Source: Nodosilinea sp. WJT8-NPBG4 (GTDB lineage: Bacteria > Cyanobacteriota > Cyanobacteriia > Phormidesmidales > Phormidesmidaceae). Taken from it: a stretch of 64,000 nt of DNA. The notes beneath the pieces are model-generated. The model searched no databases and was not told where the DNA came from. It saw only the letters and a list, made by a program, of their open reading frames with translations. The stretch's first letter is position 1. Each line of letters begins with the position of its first letter. Shown here piece by piece: positions 735 through 7,987 of the stretch. The translations under genes and the position numbers were made by a program. Location of the stretch: positions 1-64,000 of the forward strand of contig JAHHHQ010000056.1 in the NCBI GenBank assembly GCA_019359285.1, read 5' to 3'.

Positions 735-1850
735 ATGTCACTTCCAACAGAAGACTTTACCATTGGGGTTGAAGAGGAATATCAAATTATTGATCCCGCG
801 ACTCGTGAACTGCGATCGCGTCAGCAGCAAATTCTACCGATCGCCAAAAAAACGCTTGGTGAAGAAGTACAACCGGAAGCTCAGCTTTCGCAGATAGAGA
901 TCGGTACGCCTGTTTGTCGCTCACTTTCTGAAGTACGTGCAGAACTTGTCCGCTTGCGCCGGGAACTTATTGCTGCCGCTGCCAAAGACGGCAATCAAAT
1001 TGCCGCCGCTGGAACACACCCATTTTCCGAGTGGAAAGAACAGCAAGTCACGCCCAAAGAACGTTATCAAGGGCTGATGCGAGATTATCAACAACTGACC
1101 CGCGAACTCATGATCTTTGGCTGTCACGTACACGTTGGCATCAGCGATCCGGAGATGGCAGTCCAGGTTATGAACCGTTCGCGAATGTGGCTGGCACCGC
1201 TGCTGGCGCTTGCCGCTTCCTCGCCGTTTTGGTTCGGTACGGATACGGGATATGCCAGCTATCGCACGGAGATTTGGGGCCGATGGCCCATATCCGGTCC
1301 ACCGCTAATTTTCTCCTCACACGCCGAATACCAAAAGCTTGTAGAAGATTTGGTCGCAACTGGAGCCGTAGAAGAAGCGACAAAGATTTATTGGGATGCG
1401 CGTTTATCAGAGCGTTACCCAACCGTAGAGTTTCGCGTTACAGATGTCTGCATGACGGTGGATGAAGCAGTAATGGTTGCAGGACTGGTGCGCTCTTTGG
1501 CGCGAACTTGTTACGAACAAGCTCAAGGAGACAAACCATTTCCAGCCCCGCGCCACGAAGTTATACGCGCCGCGCACTGGCGTGCTGCACGCTATGGATT
1601 AGATACAGAGCTGATCGATGTTGAGGCAATGCGTGCTGTTCCAGCACACGAACTCGTTGAAAAGTTTCTAGCCTTCGTACGCCCATCGCTAGAGGAGTAT
1701 GGCGACTGGGACGAAGTTTCATTGCTCGTGCGGCAGACGATGCAGCAAGGCAATGGCGCAGCGCGACAGCGGGAAGTCTACCAGCGTACTGGACGCTTAG
1801 AGGATGTCGTTGATTTCATTGTCGCGCAGACGCTAAAAGGTATTGATTAA
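735..1850 (+). CDS. Carboxylate-amine ligase / glutamate-cysteine ligase family 2 (YbdK-like)
   Basis: 371 aa; FTIGVEEEYQIIDPATREL, CHVHVGI, WGRWPISGPP, VEFRVTDVCMTVDEA motifs of the GCS2/YbdK family. Confidence 0.85.
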   Translation: MSLPTEDFTIGVEEEYQIIDPATRELRSRQQQILPIAKKTLGEEVQPEAQLSQIEIGTPVCRSLSEVRAELVRLRRELIAAAAKDGNQIAAAGTHPFSEWKEQQVTPKERYQGLMRDYQQLTRELMIFGCHVHVGISDPEMAVQVMNRSRMWLAPLLALAASSPFWFGTDTGYASYRTEIWGRWPISGPPLIFSSHAEYQKLVEDLVATGAVEEATKIYWDARLSERYPTVEFRVTDVCMTVDEAVMVAGLVRSLARTCYEQAQGDKPFPAPRHEVIRAAHWRAARYGLDTELIDVEAMRAVPAHELVEKFLAFVRPSLEEYGDWDEVSLLVRQTMQQGNGAARQREVYQRTGRLEDVVDFIVAQTLKGID

Positions 1851-2467
1851 CTTCATTAGGGGTAGCAAAATGTGGATATTGCCATTGTTGGAGACGGTGT
1901 TTCCAATTTAGAACCCCCAGCGATCGATATAGATGATCGATATGGACAGGTAGTTCTTTCTCAATCCCTTGAGGGGGACTGGTCATTACATTGGGTTTTG
2001 GCGTGTCTATTGGCTCGGACTCGGCATAGCCTATGACTCCAAGCCTAGACCCCTACTGTTTTTTCTGAGTCTTGTCAGGGGGTTGGGGGATGTTGGTGGG
2101 CTGGGTGGTGAGAAATGGACCCAGGTGCAACGCTTAGCGAAGCCAGCTTCTCTTCTATCTGGGTCAGTCAGTCAGTTACGACATTCAACGACCCGGAAGG
2201 CTTCTGAGAGGCTAAATATCTTTCCTCTGCAGCTGTGGACAGCAGTTCGCTTAAACTGACCCCCTGCCTTCCGCGACAAGCTCCAGAAATGTCTTTGTCT
2301 CTAGCCTTAGGGCGACTTTGACACGGGTAGTAGGTGGGGTTACAGGGGGCAACGGGATAGTCCAATTTTAGTCCACACGGTGTGCCCCCACCTGATCGGC
2401 CAAATTTCACAAAAACGGTTGAAACGTCCCTATTCTCTGCTAGGATGTGAAACTGCAAATGCAGCAC

Positions 2468-2540
<73 letters not shown>

Positions 2541-2547
2541 TACTTGT

Positions 2548-2697
2548 TGTCGAGTAACGGTTTAGCTGTCGTCGCTAACAGATTAGTGTCGCTTTCACAA
2601 TTTAATTGTCGTCCTAACACATTAGTGACGACAAAGCGTTTTGACTAATCGTTAACGTGCTATCTGTCGCCTTTATGCCGTTGTAATGTCGAGTAAC
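2548..2697 (+). mobile_element. Orphan Tn7/Tn5053-like transposon end (possible type V-K CAST left end)
   Basis: Terminal-type TGTCGAGTAACGGTTTAGC; repeats TGTCGTCGCTAACAGATTAGTG (2567-2588) and TGTCGTCCTAACACATTAGTG (2607-2627) spaced 40 bp; second copy of TGTCGAGTAAC at 2687-2697; starts 8 bp after a tRNA 3' end. Confidence 0.55.
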
Positions 2698-2759
2698 AGC
2701 GTATGGCTTCCCGTTAGCTTGTGCAACCCGTGTGAGCCCCAATCGAGCTTGGCAAGCAA

Positions 2760-3914
2760 CTAGCTTTCTTGTCCCGGTTCACAATCGTCAGAGCATTTGA
2801 CGGTCAAACCCGGCTGGTAGAAACGGTAGGTATTGCGGCCTTGGTCTTTGGCTTGGTAGAGGGCCTGGTCGGCGTGGCGTAGCAGGATGGTGGGGTCGGT
2901 GCCATCCTGGGGAAAGAGGGCGATGCCGATGCTGGTGCCGACTTGTAACCGGTGGTTATCAAGGGTGAAGATAGGTTTCAGGCTCTCTAAAATGCGATCG
3001 CAGGTGCGCTCCACCGCATCTGCCGCGGTGAGCCGAGAGAGCACCAAAACAAATTCGTCGCCACCCCAGCGCACCAGCAGGTCTTCGCTGCGTAGGCATT
3101 GGGATAGGCGCTGGGCCACCCGGTGCAGCATTTGGTCGCCCACCTCGTGGCCCAGGCTATCGTTGATGTCTTTGAATTTGTCGAGGTCTAGAAAGGCTAC
3201 CGCTACCTGGGTCTGTTGGCGATCGGCTTGGGCCAGCGCCTTGGGCAGATAGGTGTCGAGAAAAGTGCGGTTGGGCAGACCGGTGAGCCGGTCGTAGAAG
3301 GCCTGGTGATGAATTCTGGCCTCGTCCTGCTTTTTTTCAGTGATGTCTCGCACCAGCCAGCGCAGGTGTGCCTCGCGACCCTCGCGGCTGATGGAGACAG
3401 TAATGGCCACATCGATACTCGGGCCTTCCCGAGGCAAAAGTTGGGTTTCCCAGGCTTTGGTAGGCAACGCCTGGGCGGAGCGGCTGAGCTGGGCCAACAT
3501 GGCGTAGAGGGCGCGACGGTGCTTAATCGGTAGAAACAGCACCATGGGTTTGCCCACCAGCAACTCCTGGGGCAGGTGCAGCATTGCTGCGATCGCCACA
3601 TTGCCCGCCTGAATGATGCCCTTGGTGTCGCTTACCAGGTAGCCATCGGGGGCGAGGTTGAAGAGGTCTTGGTAGCGCTGGCGCTCGAGCTCTAGCTGCT
3701 GTCGGTGGTCGGCTAGGGCCTGATTTTGCTGAGTCAGCTCTTCGTGGGCGGCACGCAACTCTTCGATCACTAGGCTGAGGTCGTTTAGGGCCATCGCTAG
3801 CAGCTCGGGCTGAATGGGTGATGCGCTGGCGTGCTGTTGTAGTAGTAGTGCCCGTTGCTGTACGGCATCGATGCGCTCAAACATGATATTCATTGCAACC
3901 CGCCCTGACGGCAA
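2760..3914 (-). CDS. PAS domain diguanylate cyclase (GGDEF)
   Basis: PAS region (DLFNLAPDGYLVSDTKG) and GGDEF domain with WGGDEFVLVL active site. Confidence 0.9.
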   Translation of the reverse strand: MPSGRVAMNIMFERIDAVQQRALLLQQHASASPIQPELLAMALNDLSLVIEELRAAHEELTQQNQALADHRQQLELERQRYQDLFNLAPDGYLVSDTKGIIQAGNVAIAAMLHLPQELLVGKPMVLFLPIKHRRALYAMLAQLSRSAQALPTKAWETQLLPREGPSIDVAITVSISREGREAHLRWLVRDITEKKQDEARIHHQAFYDRLTGLPNRTFLDTYLPKALAQADRQQTQVAVAFLDLDKFKDINDSLGHEVGDQMLHRVAQRLSQCLRSEDLLVRWGGDEFVLVLSRLTAADAVERTCDRILESLKPIFTLDNHRLQVGTSIGIALFPQDGTDPTILLRHADQALYQAKDQGRNTYRFYQPGLTVKCSDDCEPGQES

Positions 3915-4573
3915 TCGTCAAGATCTTGGAGCAGTTGGGCATTAGCCTGCACAAGGTCTGCGGTGCGGGCAATGATTAGATCCTGGAGATCGGCGTGGGC
4001 CGTCTGTAGCTGCTGCTCCACACAGCGCTGCTGAGAAATATCTCGGAGCGACCAGAGAATGGTGGCAGCTCCTGGGCGGCTGTCTTTGAGGAAGTTGGTG
4101 GCGATCGCCACCGTAACCGGATCCCCCTGTTGCGATTTGAGGGTGACTTCCCAGGGCTCGGTGGGGTAGGGCTGGTGCAGCCGCTGCTGAAAGTCTGACC
4201 AGTCGCCCTGCTCAATCAGCACCATCAGGGGTTTGCCCACCAGCCCCGCCTGGGGCTGCGCAAACAAGAGTTCTGCCGCCCGGTTGGCGTGATAAATTTT
4301 GCCTTTTTCGTCGGTGACTAGGTAGCCGTCGGGGGCCAGCTCAAACAGGGTGCGGTAGCGTTGGCGCTCAAGATCAACCTGATTCCGGGTGTCGCTGAGT
4401 ATCTGGTTTTGCTCATGCAGCTCCGCATCTACGGCCTGAAGCTCTTCGAGCACGAGGTAGAGGTCTTTGAGGGCCAGCTCTAGCAGGACAGGATCAATTG
4501 GGGTGGTAGTGGCCTGCTCGCGCAGCCGAAGGGCGCGTTGGTAGACTGCCTCGATTTGATGAGAGATACTCAT
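3890..4573 (-). CDS. PAS domain-containing protein
   Basis: LFELAPDGYLVTDEKGKIYHANRAAELLFA PAS core; similar in layout to the N-terminus of the adjacent GGDEF protein. Confidence 0.75.
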   Translation of the reverse strand: MSISHQIEAVYQRALRLREQATTTPIDPVLLELALKDLYLVLEELQAVDAELHEQNQILSDTRNQVDLERQRYRTLFELAPDGYLVTDEKGKIYHANRAAELLFAQPQAGLVGKPLMVLIEQGDWSDFQQRLHQPYPTEPWEVTLKSQQGDPVTVAIATNFLKDSRPGAATILWSLRDISQQRCVEQQLQTAHADLQDLIIARTADLVQANAQLLQDLDDCRQGGLQ

Positions 4574-5005
4574 AAGTCAGCTTCCATAAGGATGGTCGAT
4601 CATCCAAAAAAGCCTAGCAATACCTTCCTTAAGGGTCTAATTTCAGCTTAAAAAGTCGCTTTTTCCTAATCTTTATTATATCAACATGTTTAGCCAGATA
4701 GAGTCACCGGCAGACTGAGATTGCCTTTGACATTAAGGGTAAGGTCAAGCACCCATACTGTTTCTCTCTATACTAGGTCGCCTCAAGGCCTGTAGTTTTC
4801 TACGAAAAAACCTCTATTTTTAATCTTAACTGGGTTTACTTGCTTTGATTTGCCCTTAAGAAATGCTGTTTTTCTTGAGCGTAGTCCGCCCTAGGTTACC
4901 CTGGTTCTACCAATATAGAAGCAGGGGAGTTTTGCTGGTATTTGAACCTTGAGTAACGCGTTCTTAACGTTTTATATGTTAAAAACCATTTTCTGGAAGC
5001 GATCT

Positions 5006-7987
5006 TTATGCGCTGTCAGCAGTGCGATTGATCACAGTTTCAATGGCTAGTAAAACTAAATCGTCGCCGTTGGGCTGGAGCATCTTGCGGGCGTTGAGCC
5101 GCATGGTTTGGGGGCCAATGGTTTCAAAGGTGTGCACGACTTCAAAGTCGTCGACCTGCAAGTTTTGGGGCAGTAGGTCGTGGAGCAGCGATCGCAGCTG
5201 AGGGATATCCCACTGGCCGTTGCCCAGCTCAAAGATCAGCTGCCCCTCGGTGTCGTCGGGGTTGACCTGAAAGGTTTGATAAAACTGCCGATTTGCCGTC
5301 ACCACCCGCAGGTCGTGGGTGAGCACCACCAGGGCCTCGCGCACGGTCTGCACAATGGCGTCGGCGTAGTCGCGGGCCTGGCGCAGCTGGTTGGCGCTGC
5401 GCTTGAGGCTGTCAATATCCACCAGCACCACCACTGCCCCATCGATGCGGTTGTCGAGGGTGCGGTAGGGGCGAATGCGTAGGTCGTGCCAGCGGCCCTC
5501 CTGATCCTGCACCTCCTGGCTGCTCTGCTCTAGGGTATTGATCACCGCTAAAATGCGGGTCTCGAGGTCGGCGATCGCCAGGCGGTGGTTGATGTCGCCC
5601 AGGGGGCGGCCCACATCGCCGGGAATCAGGTTGAACAGGGCGGCTGCGGTGGGGGTAAAGCGGCGAATTCTGAGGTCGTCTTCCAACATCAGAATGGGAA
5701 TGTGGATGCTGCTGAGCAGGTTTTGAAAGTCGTTGCTGATGTGGGTGGTTTCGGAGTTGCGACGGTAGAGTTCGTCGTTGATGGTGCTGAGTTCTTCGTT
5801 GGTGGCCTGAATTTCTTCTTTGGCGGTTTGCAGCTCTTCGTTGGTGCTCTGGAGCTCTTCGTTGCTGGAAAGAATTTCTTCGTTGGCGGCCCTCAGATCC
5901 TGGTTTGTGGCCTCCTGCTCTTGAATGATCGATTGTAGGTGCGATCGCGTGGTGTCGAGATCCTGCTGGAGGGCGAGGTTTTCTTGCCGGTACTGCCCCT
6001 CCAAGTCGGCGACGGGGACAGCGGCCTCGGCGGCGGTGCCGTCTGGCACCAAATCGGTGAAGAGCACTAGATAGTAAGCTTTGCCAGCGGGCTGGGGCAT
6101 GAGGGGCACGACCTCAATTTGCACCGGGCGGCGATCGCCCGCTTCGATCAGCAGCGATCGCCGTTGCACCGCCTGGCTGGTTTGCTGGGCCTGGTAAACG
6201 GCCGTGCGCAGGTCGAGCTGCAGCCCCTCCTTGGCCATGGTGAGCAAATTAAGGCTGGCGCGACCGGGGGCTGGCTCTAGATAAGCCCCCGTCTGCCCGC
6301 GAAACTGCAAAATCTCCAGCCGGTCATTCATCAATACCCCCGCTGGGCCGTAGCGGTTGAGCACCGTCTGGTCAGCCAGGGCGTAGAGGTCGACGTCTTG
6401 GCTGCGTCGGGGTGGGTCGGGCCGAGGGGGCTGAGGGCTGGGGGTGTAGGTGGTGGGGTCAAAGTCAAAGCTCAACGGCAGCGACGACGACTGCTTGGTG
6501 TAGAGCTTGTAGTGACTGTCGACCAGCGAAAACAGGTGGCTAAACTCCCCCGTTGTCTCCGACGACCCCAGCAGCAAAAAGCCGTCGGGCTTAAGGCCGT
6601 AGTGAAACATGGGTAGCACCTTGCTCTGCAAAGCCGCCCCAAAGTAAATCAACACGTTGCGGCAGCTGATTAAATCTAGGCGCGAAAAGGGCGGATCGGT
6701 GATCAGATTTTGGCAGGCAAAAATGCACAGCTCTCGCACCACTTTGTTGATCTGGTAGCCGCCGTCGGTGGGCACAAAAAACCGCTGCAACCGCTCTGGC
6801 GACACGTTGCTCACCTGCACGGGCGAGTACCAGCCCACGCGGGCTACTTCAATGGCCAGCTTGCTGACATCGGTGGCAAAAATTTGAATTGGCGGGCTGA
6901 CGCTGTGGTGGCTGAAATACTCCAGCAGGCAAATGGCAATGGAATAGGCCTCTTCGCCAGTCGAGCAGCCCGCCACCCAAACGCGCAGGGGCAGGTCGGG
7001 GTTGCCTTGGCCGGCTTGGGCCAGCCGTTGGCGATATCTCAGCAGCGCCGGAAACATCGTCTGCTCCAGCGCCGTAAACACTTCCCCATCGCGAAAGAAG
7101 CTGGTTACGCCAATCAAAATTTCCTGGTGCAGGGTCTGCACCTCCTCGAGGTTGGCCTGGAGGTACTGACTGTAGCTCTCCAGGCTCTCCAGGTGGTGCA
7201 GGGCCATGCGGCGAGAGATGCGCCGCATGACGGTGCTGGGCTTGTACTGGGCAAAGTCAATTTTGGTGACCCGCTTCAGCAGGGTGAGAACGGTGTCCAG
7301 CCCGGTGGTGCTTGGGGTCTTCTCCGGGGCCACGAGTTCTACTGGGCTGGGGCTTGTGATGTAGGGGTGGGCACTGAGGCTGGCTAGGGTCTGGGCAATT
7401 TCTTCTGGCGTTTGAATGAAGTCAACCTGCCCGGTGGCGATCGCCGTGTGGGGCATGCTGCTAAATTTTGCCGATGCCTCCGACTGGGAAAAGGTGATGC
7501 CCCCTGCCGCCTTGATTGCCTCTAGCCCCAGGGTGCCGTCGGCATCGGCCCCTGAGAGCACCACGCCAATGGCTTTGTTACCCCGCTCCTGGGCCAAGGC
7601 GTTAAAGAAACTGTCGATCAGGCGGCTGCCGGTGCGCGATCGCGGGCGGGGTCGCAGCCGCAGCTCGCCTGCCACAATGGTCATCGCCGTATTGTGGGGG
7701 ATGACGTAGACGTGGTTGGGGGCGATCGCCACCCCATCGACCACCTCCAGCACCGGCATCTCGGTGGTGCGGCTCATGATCTCGCTCAGCAGGCTGGGCT
7801 GGCTGGGGTCTAAATGCTGCAACAGCACAAAGGCCATGCCCGTGGTGGTGGGCAAATGGCTCAGCAGTTGGGTAAAAGCTTCTAACCCCCCCGCCGACGC
7901 CCCAATCGCCACCACCGGAAACATCTCCTCTGGCTGGGCAGGGGCTGGTGGAGCGTCATCGGCGGGGGAGGGGTGCTGGAGAGCCAT
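5006..7987 (-). CDS. CheB/CheR fusion chemotaxis-type methylesterase/methyltransferase with PAS domains
   Basis: CheB IGASAGGLEAF and LLQHLDPSQPS; CheR WVAGCSTGEEAYSIA and FATDVSKLAIEVAR; coiled-coil ATNEEL repeats; PAS. Confidence 0.92.
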   Translation of the reverse strand: MALQHPSPADDAPPAPAQPEEMFPVVAIGASAGGLEAFTQLLSHLPTTTGMAFVLLQHLDPSQPSLLSEIMSRTTEMPVLEVVDGVAIAPNHVYVIPHNTAMTIVAGELRLRPRPRSRTGSRLIDSFFNALAQERGNKAIGVVLSGADADGTLGLEAIKAAGGITFSQSEASAKFSSMPHTAIATGQVDFIQTPEEIAQTLASLSAHPYITSPSPVELVAPEKTPSTTGLDTVLTLLKRVTKIDFAQYKPSTVMRRISRRMALHHLESLESYSQYLQANLEEVQTLHQEILIGVTSFFRDGEVFTALEQTMFPALLRYRQRLAQAGQGNPDLPLRVWVAGCSTGEEAYSIAICLLEYFSHHSVSPPIQIFATDVSKLAIEVARVGWYSPVQVSNVSPERLQRFFVPTDGGYQINKVVRELCIFACQNLITDPPFSRLDLISCRNVLIYFGAALQSKVLPMFHYGLKPDGFLLLGSSETTGEFSHLFSLVDSHYKLYTKQSSSLPLSFDFDPTTYTPSPQPPRPDPPRRSQDVDLYALADQTVLNRYGPAGVLMNDRLEILQFRGQTGAYLEPAPGRASLNLLTMAKEGLQLDLRTAVYQAQQTSQAVQRRSLLIEAGDRRPVQIEVVPLMPQPAGKAYYLVLFTDLVPDGTAAEAAVPVADLEGQYRQENLALQQDLDTTRSHLQSIIQEQEATNQDLRAANEEILSSNEELQSTNEELQTAKEEIQATNEELSTINDELYRRNSETTHISNDFQNLLSSIHIPILMLEDDLRIRRFTPTAAALFNLIPGDVGRPLGDINHRLAIADLETRILAVINTLEQSSQEVQDQEGRWHDLRIRPYRTLDNRIDGAVVVLVDIDSLKRSANQLRQARDYADAIVQTVREALVVLTHDLRVVTANRQFYQTFQVNPDDTEGQLIFELGNGQWDIPQLRSLLHDLLPQNLQVDDFEVVHTFETIGPQTMRLNARKMLQPNGDDLVLLAIETVINRTADSA

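Follow-up and report, generated by a model that had tools for sequence, protein, structure and literature searches.

Putative inert remnant of a type V-K CAST left end beside tRNA-Val(UAC) in a cyanobacterial genome

Type V-K CASTs share a layout of tRNA, left end (LE), anchor spacer, array, cas12k, cargo, tniQ/tnsC/tnsB and right end (RE), with a PAM distance of 46-82 nt, and degenerate copies of cas12k have also been reported (PMC9938897). These elements use tRNA attachment sites, move replicatively, change attachment site frequently and show apparent target immunity (review PMC11406308). TnsB binds each repeat, independently at LE and RE (PMC9527255). The prototype V-K CAST, ShCAST (Tn7747), resembles the locus described here in that, according to the literature and the left end given for it in a preliminary description of our locus, the LE lies by a tRNA, TnsB sites recur every ~20 bp and a GTN PAM lies ~60 bp away. 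It differs in being complete and active, and its terminus, as given in that description, is TGTACAGTGA and not TGTCGAGTAA.

Two other systems are useful for comparison. The V-K CAST of Nodosilinea nodulosa PCC 7104 (NZ_JH976537.1; L151; G002:C1:~324000) shares with our locus the tRNA-Val(UAC), the left-end type, the register of sites and the place of the anchor spacer. However, it continues into a full anchor, R*, an array and a 652-aa cas12k frame, whereas ours breaks off after 6 nt of anchor; the N. nodulosa PCC 7104 genome likewise yielded no tnsB of matching type. The V-K CAST of Tildeniella torsiva (JAHHIH010000003.1; L150; G027:C30) shares the TGTCGAGTAACGG terminus (83% identity over 71 nt), but it sits at tRNA-Val(CAC) with another guide and, unlike our copy, retains array, cas12k and tnsBC-tniQ.

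The stretch of DNA analyzed, here called the window, spans the initial 64 kb of contig C56 (87.9 kb) in a cyanobacterial genome of 5.9 Mb (G000); its relevant features are listed in Table 1. The preliminary description had placed a transposon end directly after tRNA-Val, and TGTCGAG indeed opens 7 nt past the tRNA 3′ end. The two direct repeats on which that description relied (2567-2588 and 2607-2627, 40 bp apart) are also present, but the sites at 2548 and 2587 had been overlooked, and the array comprises four TnsB-type sites. Their register (+0/+19/+39/+59) has a single occurrence in the window, was seen in none of 200 first-order Markov random windows, and recurs in V-K left ends of many genera. 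A chance origin of this pattern is excluded.

Table 1. Features at the tRNA-Val(UAC) locus, in window coordinates
Feature	Position	Strand	Basis
tRNA-Val (anticodon TAC; UAC), attachment gene	2468..2540	+	ARAGORN
GTA, GTN PAM for V-K anchor targeting	2486..2488	+	Sequence; placed via 17-nt anchors in relatives, including N. nodulosa PCC 7104, at tRNA offset 21
Anchor protospacer GAGCGCCTGCCTTACAA within tRNA-Val	2489..2505	+	Exact match to anchor spacers of CASTs at tRNA-Val(UAC) in related genomes; unique in own genome
CTTGT, expected position of 5-bp target duplication	2543..2547	+	Sequence; partner copy not identified, right end absent
Left end of V-K CAST with its four TnsB-type sites (starts 2548, 2567, 2587 and 2607)	2548..2627	+	HMM, register, 80% identity to N. 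nodulosa CAST
Sub-terminal left end, between TnsB sites and anchor spacer	2628..2680	+	Alignment with N. nodulosa PCC 7104; G011 shares 2621-2669
TTGTAA, last 6 of 17 nt of anchor spacer, reverse orientation	2681..2686	-	G002 goes on TTGTAAGGCAGGCGCTCCTTTCAATCC; the window breaks off past TTGTAA and lacks the R*, array and cas12k that would follow
TGTCGAGTAAC, exact 11-nt copy of left-end terminus	2687..2697	+	Scan; begins exactly at the break; just two copies of the 11-mer in the window
Ordinary flank	2703..2759	+	blastn and alignment: homologous to G006:C219, there after a 3′ tRNA-Val fragment without the window left end
PAS/GGDEF protein gene, conserved right-hand neighbor in relatives	2760..3914	-	ORF; genus search

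We collected 80 named Cas12k-flanking loci, in most of which tRNA, left end and 17-nt anchor spacer could be located, and built a left-end HMM from those outside the genus. This profile, which represents TnsB-site arrays more than exact termini because automatic start calling frequently fell on the second TnsB site, gave a single significant match in the 64 kb (2567-2633, E 5.6e-10; next E 3.8); the best match in the reversed window had E 1.2. In a blastn comparison of 2548-2686 with the Cas12k loci, N. nodulosa PCC 7104 matched with 80% identity over 139/140 nt (E 5e-30), and further matches fell at left ends of Tildeniella, Aphanothece, filamentous cyanobacterium CCP2, Nostoc and others. Both methods support the V-K assignment of the preliminary description, and CAST homology reaches 2686 rather than ending at 2640 as first drawn. 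A search of a plasmid collection gave no match.

The segment has a TGT terminus and TnsB-type sites spaced ~20 bp apart, as would be expected of a V-K left end. It lies 3′ of the tRNA, which points into it, and is 59 nt from the GTN PAM, within the 46-82 nt range; the computed distance is 61 nt at a second left end in the same genome (contig C44) and 64 nt in N. nodulosa. In a whole-genome search allowing ≤2 mismatches, the tRNA-Val at 2468-2540 was the sole match to its anchor protospacer. From its sequence, we identify 2548-2686 as the left end of a type V-K CAST beside tRNA-Val(UAC). The earlier proposal of a solo V-K end is supported by the HMM, the identity to N. nodulosa, the cut anchor spacer, the PAM spacing and the presence/absence pattern among relatives, and the vaguer Tn7/Tn5053-like alternative is not needed.

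The left end of N. nodulosa reads ...CGCCTTTATGCCGTTGTAA|GGCAGGCGCTCCTTTCAATCC, in which the bases past TTGTAA complete the anchor spacer (reverse complement of GAGCGCCTGCCTTACAA) and lead into R*. The window reads ...CGCCTTTATGCCGTTGTAA and then TGTCGAGTAACAGCG, and its alignment with N. nodulosa holds through base 2686. This departure directly after TTGTAA indicates that the element was cut within its own homing guide, with 6/17 nt kept. For the 11-nt terminus copy at 2687, the best candidate source is another V-K element that inserted into the anchor before a deletion took place. That 2687-2697 might be native was also weighed, given that G006 has a TGT start there as well; the 11-nt identity to the terminus, starting exactly at the break, speaks against this. 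Sites elsewhere in the genome that match TGTCGAGTAAC with 1-2 mismatches were at chance level and fewer than for a control pattern; one such site, C4:36015, reads as coding sequence by eye.

Other parts of a CAST were missing from the contig. The right-end query ACACTTGT found no matching junction downstream; its one match is unrelated and lies on the opposite side of the tRNA from where a right end would be expected. The HMM detected no further left- or right-end-like cluster over the 87.9 kb; this search relied on site similarity because the right end of this subgroup was recovered intact from no relative (that of G027 looks damaged). Of the 17-nt anchor spacer, the left end retains just 6 nt, and the truncated repeat R* that would accompany it is lacking. 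Neither a CRISPR array, a tracrRNA nor cas12k was found beside the left end, where flank and GGDEF gene come directly after. No tnsB-tnsC-tniQ, and no right end with a 5-bp target duplication, was found on the contig, so the absence of transposase genes, cas12k and CRISPR array near the end, first remarked from the window, holds for all of C56. Apart from the tRNA target, a guide for tRNA-Val(UAC) was absent from the rest of the genome at ≤2 mismatches.

The genome-wide search for matching ends and machinery that had been suggested at the outset revealed related parts on two other contigs. On C44, tRNA-Val(CAC) is accompanied by another left end, 78% identical to the window end over 72 nt; the remaining weak DNA matches of the search that gave this identity had E-values at chance level. 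Alongside the C44 left end are an anchor spacer, GCGCGCTTCCTTCACAC, matching tRNA-Val(CAC), and a few CRISPR-like repeats. C44 also carries the only Cas12k in the genome (NCBIfam NF038191, E 3e-194; PDB ShCas12k match), which is N-terminally cut and starts at profile position ~148. Upstream of it, at the contig start, an IS5-like transposase frame begins (MPTRRYALRDDQWERIKDWLP); Cas12k was therefore probably split by an IS. The sole V-K TnsB in the genome belongs to a tnsB-tnsC-tniQ set at the start of another contig (G000:C1:71-3104; L019). These genes are 92-94% identical to CAST genes of G012, which represent another V-K subgroup, and the C1 TnsB is about 44-46% identical to its Tildeniella CAST counterpart; the Cas12k of that CAST shares 89% identity with the one on C44. 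Because the C1 transposase genes and the C44 Cas12k differ in subgroup, no complete matched CAST is visible in the assembly; the cognate Cas12k of the C1 subgroup is missing from it.

On C1, tnsB-tnsC-tniQ is followed by a tyrosine recombinase-like gene, an apparent CRISPR array and other cargo-like genes. Two more Tn7-like TnsB/TnsC/TniQ loci occur at G000:C49:~2400-6800, with two TniQ genes, and C58:~1000-4700. The V-K left-end HMM gave no match on C49:1-15000 or C58:1-8000.

Occupancy of the site was assessed in a genus set of 28 genomes, including N. nodulosa PCC 7104 (G002), Nodosilinea sp. FACHB-131 and Tildeniella torsiva (G027). tRNA-Val(tac) was readable in 26 of these, one of them with just 3 nt after it. 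In 12 of the 26 it is followed by V-K ends, which fall into at least three types and include several orphans; the site is an insertion hot spot. The window type occurs in G000, G002 and G011 (decayed), the TGTACGTTCG type in G001, G004, G005, G013, G014 and G027, and the TGTACAGTGA type in G015, G018 and G022; types were assigned by eye from termini, and clear profile scores were confined to the window type in G000 and G002 and the TGTACAGTGA type in G015 and G022. G001 and G018 have no V-K Cas12k or TnsB genome-wide, no anchor was present within the 320 nt read in G005, and the anchor is missing in G000 and G011. Ends without anchor or machinery in these five genomes indicate that orphaning is common. 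A TGTACG-type CAST in G014 has its right end ~91 kb from the tRNA, directly against a window-type left-end remnant (AACGATTTAG...), and in G027 a 10-nt window-type terminus precedes a TGTACG-type end, which points to successive insertions at one site.

Several other arrangements were observed in this set. Stacked CASTs, with a right end directly before another V-K left end or remnant, occur at G012:C44 (L139) and G014:C1:~851200 (L069). Stubs of a V-K terminus, 5-10 nt long, lie between tRNA and intact left end at L157, L158, L170, L195, L224, G027:C37 and G014:C7, as if an incoming CAST had landed a few bases within one already resident, or an insertion had been aborted. Isolated 3′ pieces of tRNA-Val(tac), 47-52 nt long and 98-100% identical, are found at G006:C219:566-612, G003:C2:77140-77191, G017:C235, G017:C42 and G016:C272, and have the form usually left when integrase-type islands at tRNA-Val(tac) duplicate their attachment site. 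A full 17-nt reverse anchor copy (TTGTAAGGCAGGCGCTC) lies 133 nt after tRNA-Val(tac) on G017:C273 (L051); no left end was recognized around it, and that genome has no V-K Cas12k or TnsB.

Gene-less elements were also seen. A 208-bp element with inverted V-K-like ends, G018:C46:29362-29569 (L050, minus strand), directly follows tRNA-Val(tac), and relatives of 208-212 bp, or a 150-bp deleted form, occur at other sites in G018, G013, G011, G012 and our own genome (C74:36957-37106). The element looks like a MITE-like V-K derivative. A 5-bp target duplication was not seen at any copy, and empty-site searches gave no alignment across a junction, the flank pair of the G000 C74 copy being only partly in the query. 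A small literature search found no paper on orphan V-K ends or miniature V-K elements.

The 139-bp segment is very probably the remnant of a V-K CAST that inserted at tRNA-Val(UAC), lost the rest of its body by a later deletion and is now inert. A V-K CAST would have inserted ~59 bp past the GTA PAM in the tRNA, guided by a 17-nt anchor crRNA encoded near its own left end; this crRNA-guided step is attributed by analogy with the family. A later deletion would then have run from within the anchor spacer into the right flank, removing guide, array, cas12k, cargo, transposase genes and right end. The tRNA-side end probably survived because further leftward deletion would destroy the sole tRNA-Val(UAC) gene, which is single-copy in the assembly and presumably essential. 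The remnant keeps TnsB-type sites; its partner end, guide and cognate machinery are gone, and it is inert. This is ordinary decay of a known element type. The tRNA and the GGDEF gene are separated in the sister species G011-G014 by a native stretch of ~4.5 kb, which encodes a NACHT-like NTPase and response regulators (named by eye). Its absence from the window is what a deletion reaching beyond the CAST into the flank would produce, but G006 likewise lacks it, so the absence could be ancestral. In addition, the deletion end coincides with the 11-nt terminus copy at 2687, and a single simple deletion does not explain everything.

That copy invites a tentative elaboration, to which we give somewhat less than an even chance: a sibling left end joined into the first anchor spacer at 2686/2687, and a deletion then removed both bodies and left an 11-nt stub. 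TGTCGAGTAAC begins exactly at the break, 5-10 nt terminus stubs beside another left end are frequent at V-K sites, and G014 and G012 contain CASTs stacked one after the other; on the other hand, an odd place of insertion, not at the tRNA distance, would be needed, and the deletion would have to stop 11 nt within the newcomer. Such a second insertion refines the decay explanation and does not compete with it. A non-autonomous mini-CAST with both ends, moved in trans by another CAST, is brought to mind by the gene-less 208-bp pair of ends at tRNA-Val(tac) in G018 and its relatives at other sites. It is nevertheless highly improbable: no inverted end follows in the window, 2687-2697 is in direct orientation, the HMM shows no second cluster on the contig, and homology to the G006 GGDEF flank is back by 2703. 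The small non-autonomous derivative entertained in the preliminary description is likewise unsupported, as no right end was found.

That the segment is the left end of a complete CAST, with body and right end far off or lost to assembly, we find hardly credible. Parts are indeed scattered over contig edges, with tnsB-tnsC-tniQ at the start of one contig and Cas12k at that of another. However, V-K elements keep anchor, array and cas12k beside the LE (PMC9938897), as seen in N. nodulosa, whereas here contiguous sequence runs straight into the GGDEF flank; moreover, a tRNA-Val(UAC) guide is absent from the whole assembly, and the C1 transposase genes belong to a G012-like subgroup whose TnsB is only 46% identical to that of the CAST with the closest Cas12k. 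A conserved, non-mobile part of the tRNA-Val locus, such as a trailer, terminator or processing signal, might be suspected from a start 7 nt past the tRNA, but this was tested and rejected, with next to no chance of being correct: downstream sequence differs among relatives, more than half of which have no CAST end while others carry CASTs of other types. The preliminary description had regarded conservation of the same sequence in strains without transposon history as fatal to its proposal; relatives instead show other sequences, other CASTs or nothing.

It is very unlikely, although conceivable, that the solo left end was kept because bound TnsB blocks new V-K insertions at tRNA-Val, a form of fossil-end target immunity. 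If true, orphan ends at attachment sites would act as vaccination scars against related CASTs. Ends alone do not justify calling a CAST present. Decay at this locus illustrates one way in which V-K CASTs can die: the private homing guide is severed, and the end beside a presumably essential tRNA remains. Orphan ends of this kind let the history of CAST insertion be read, and in this genus they reveal one tRNA struck repeatedly, by at least three left-end types.
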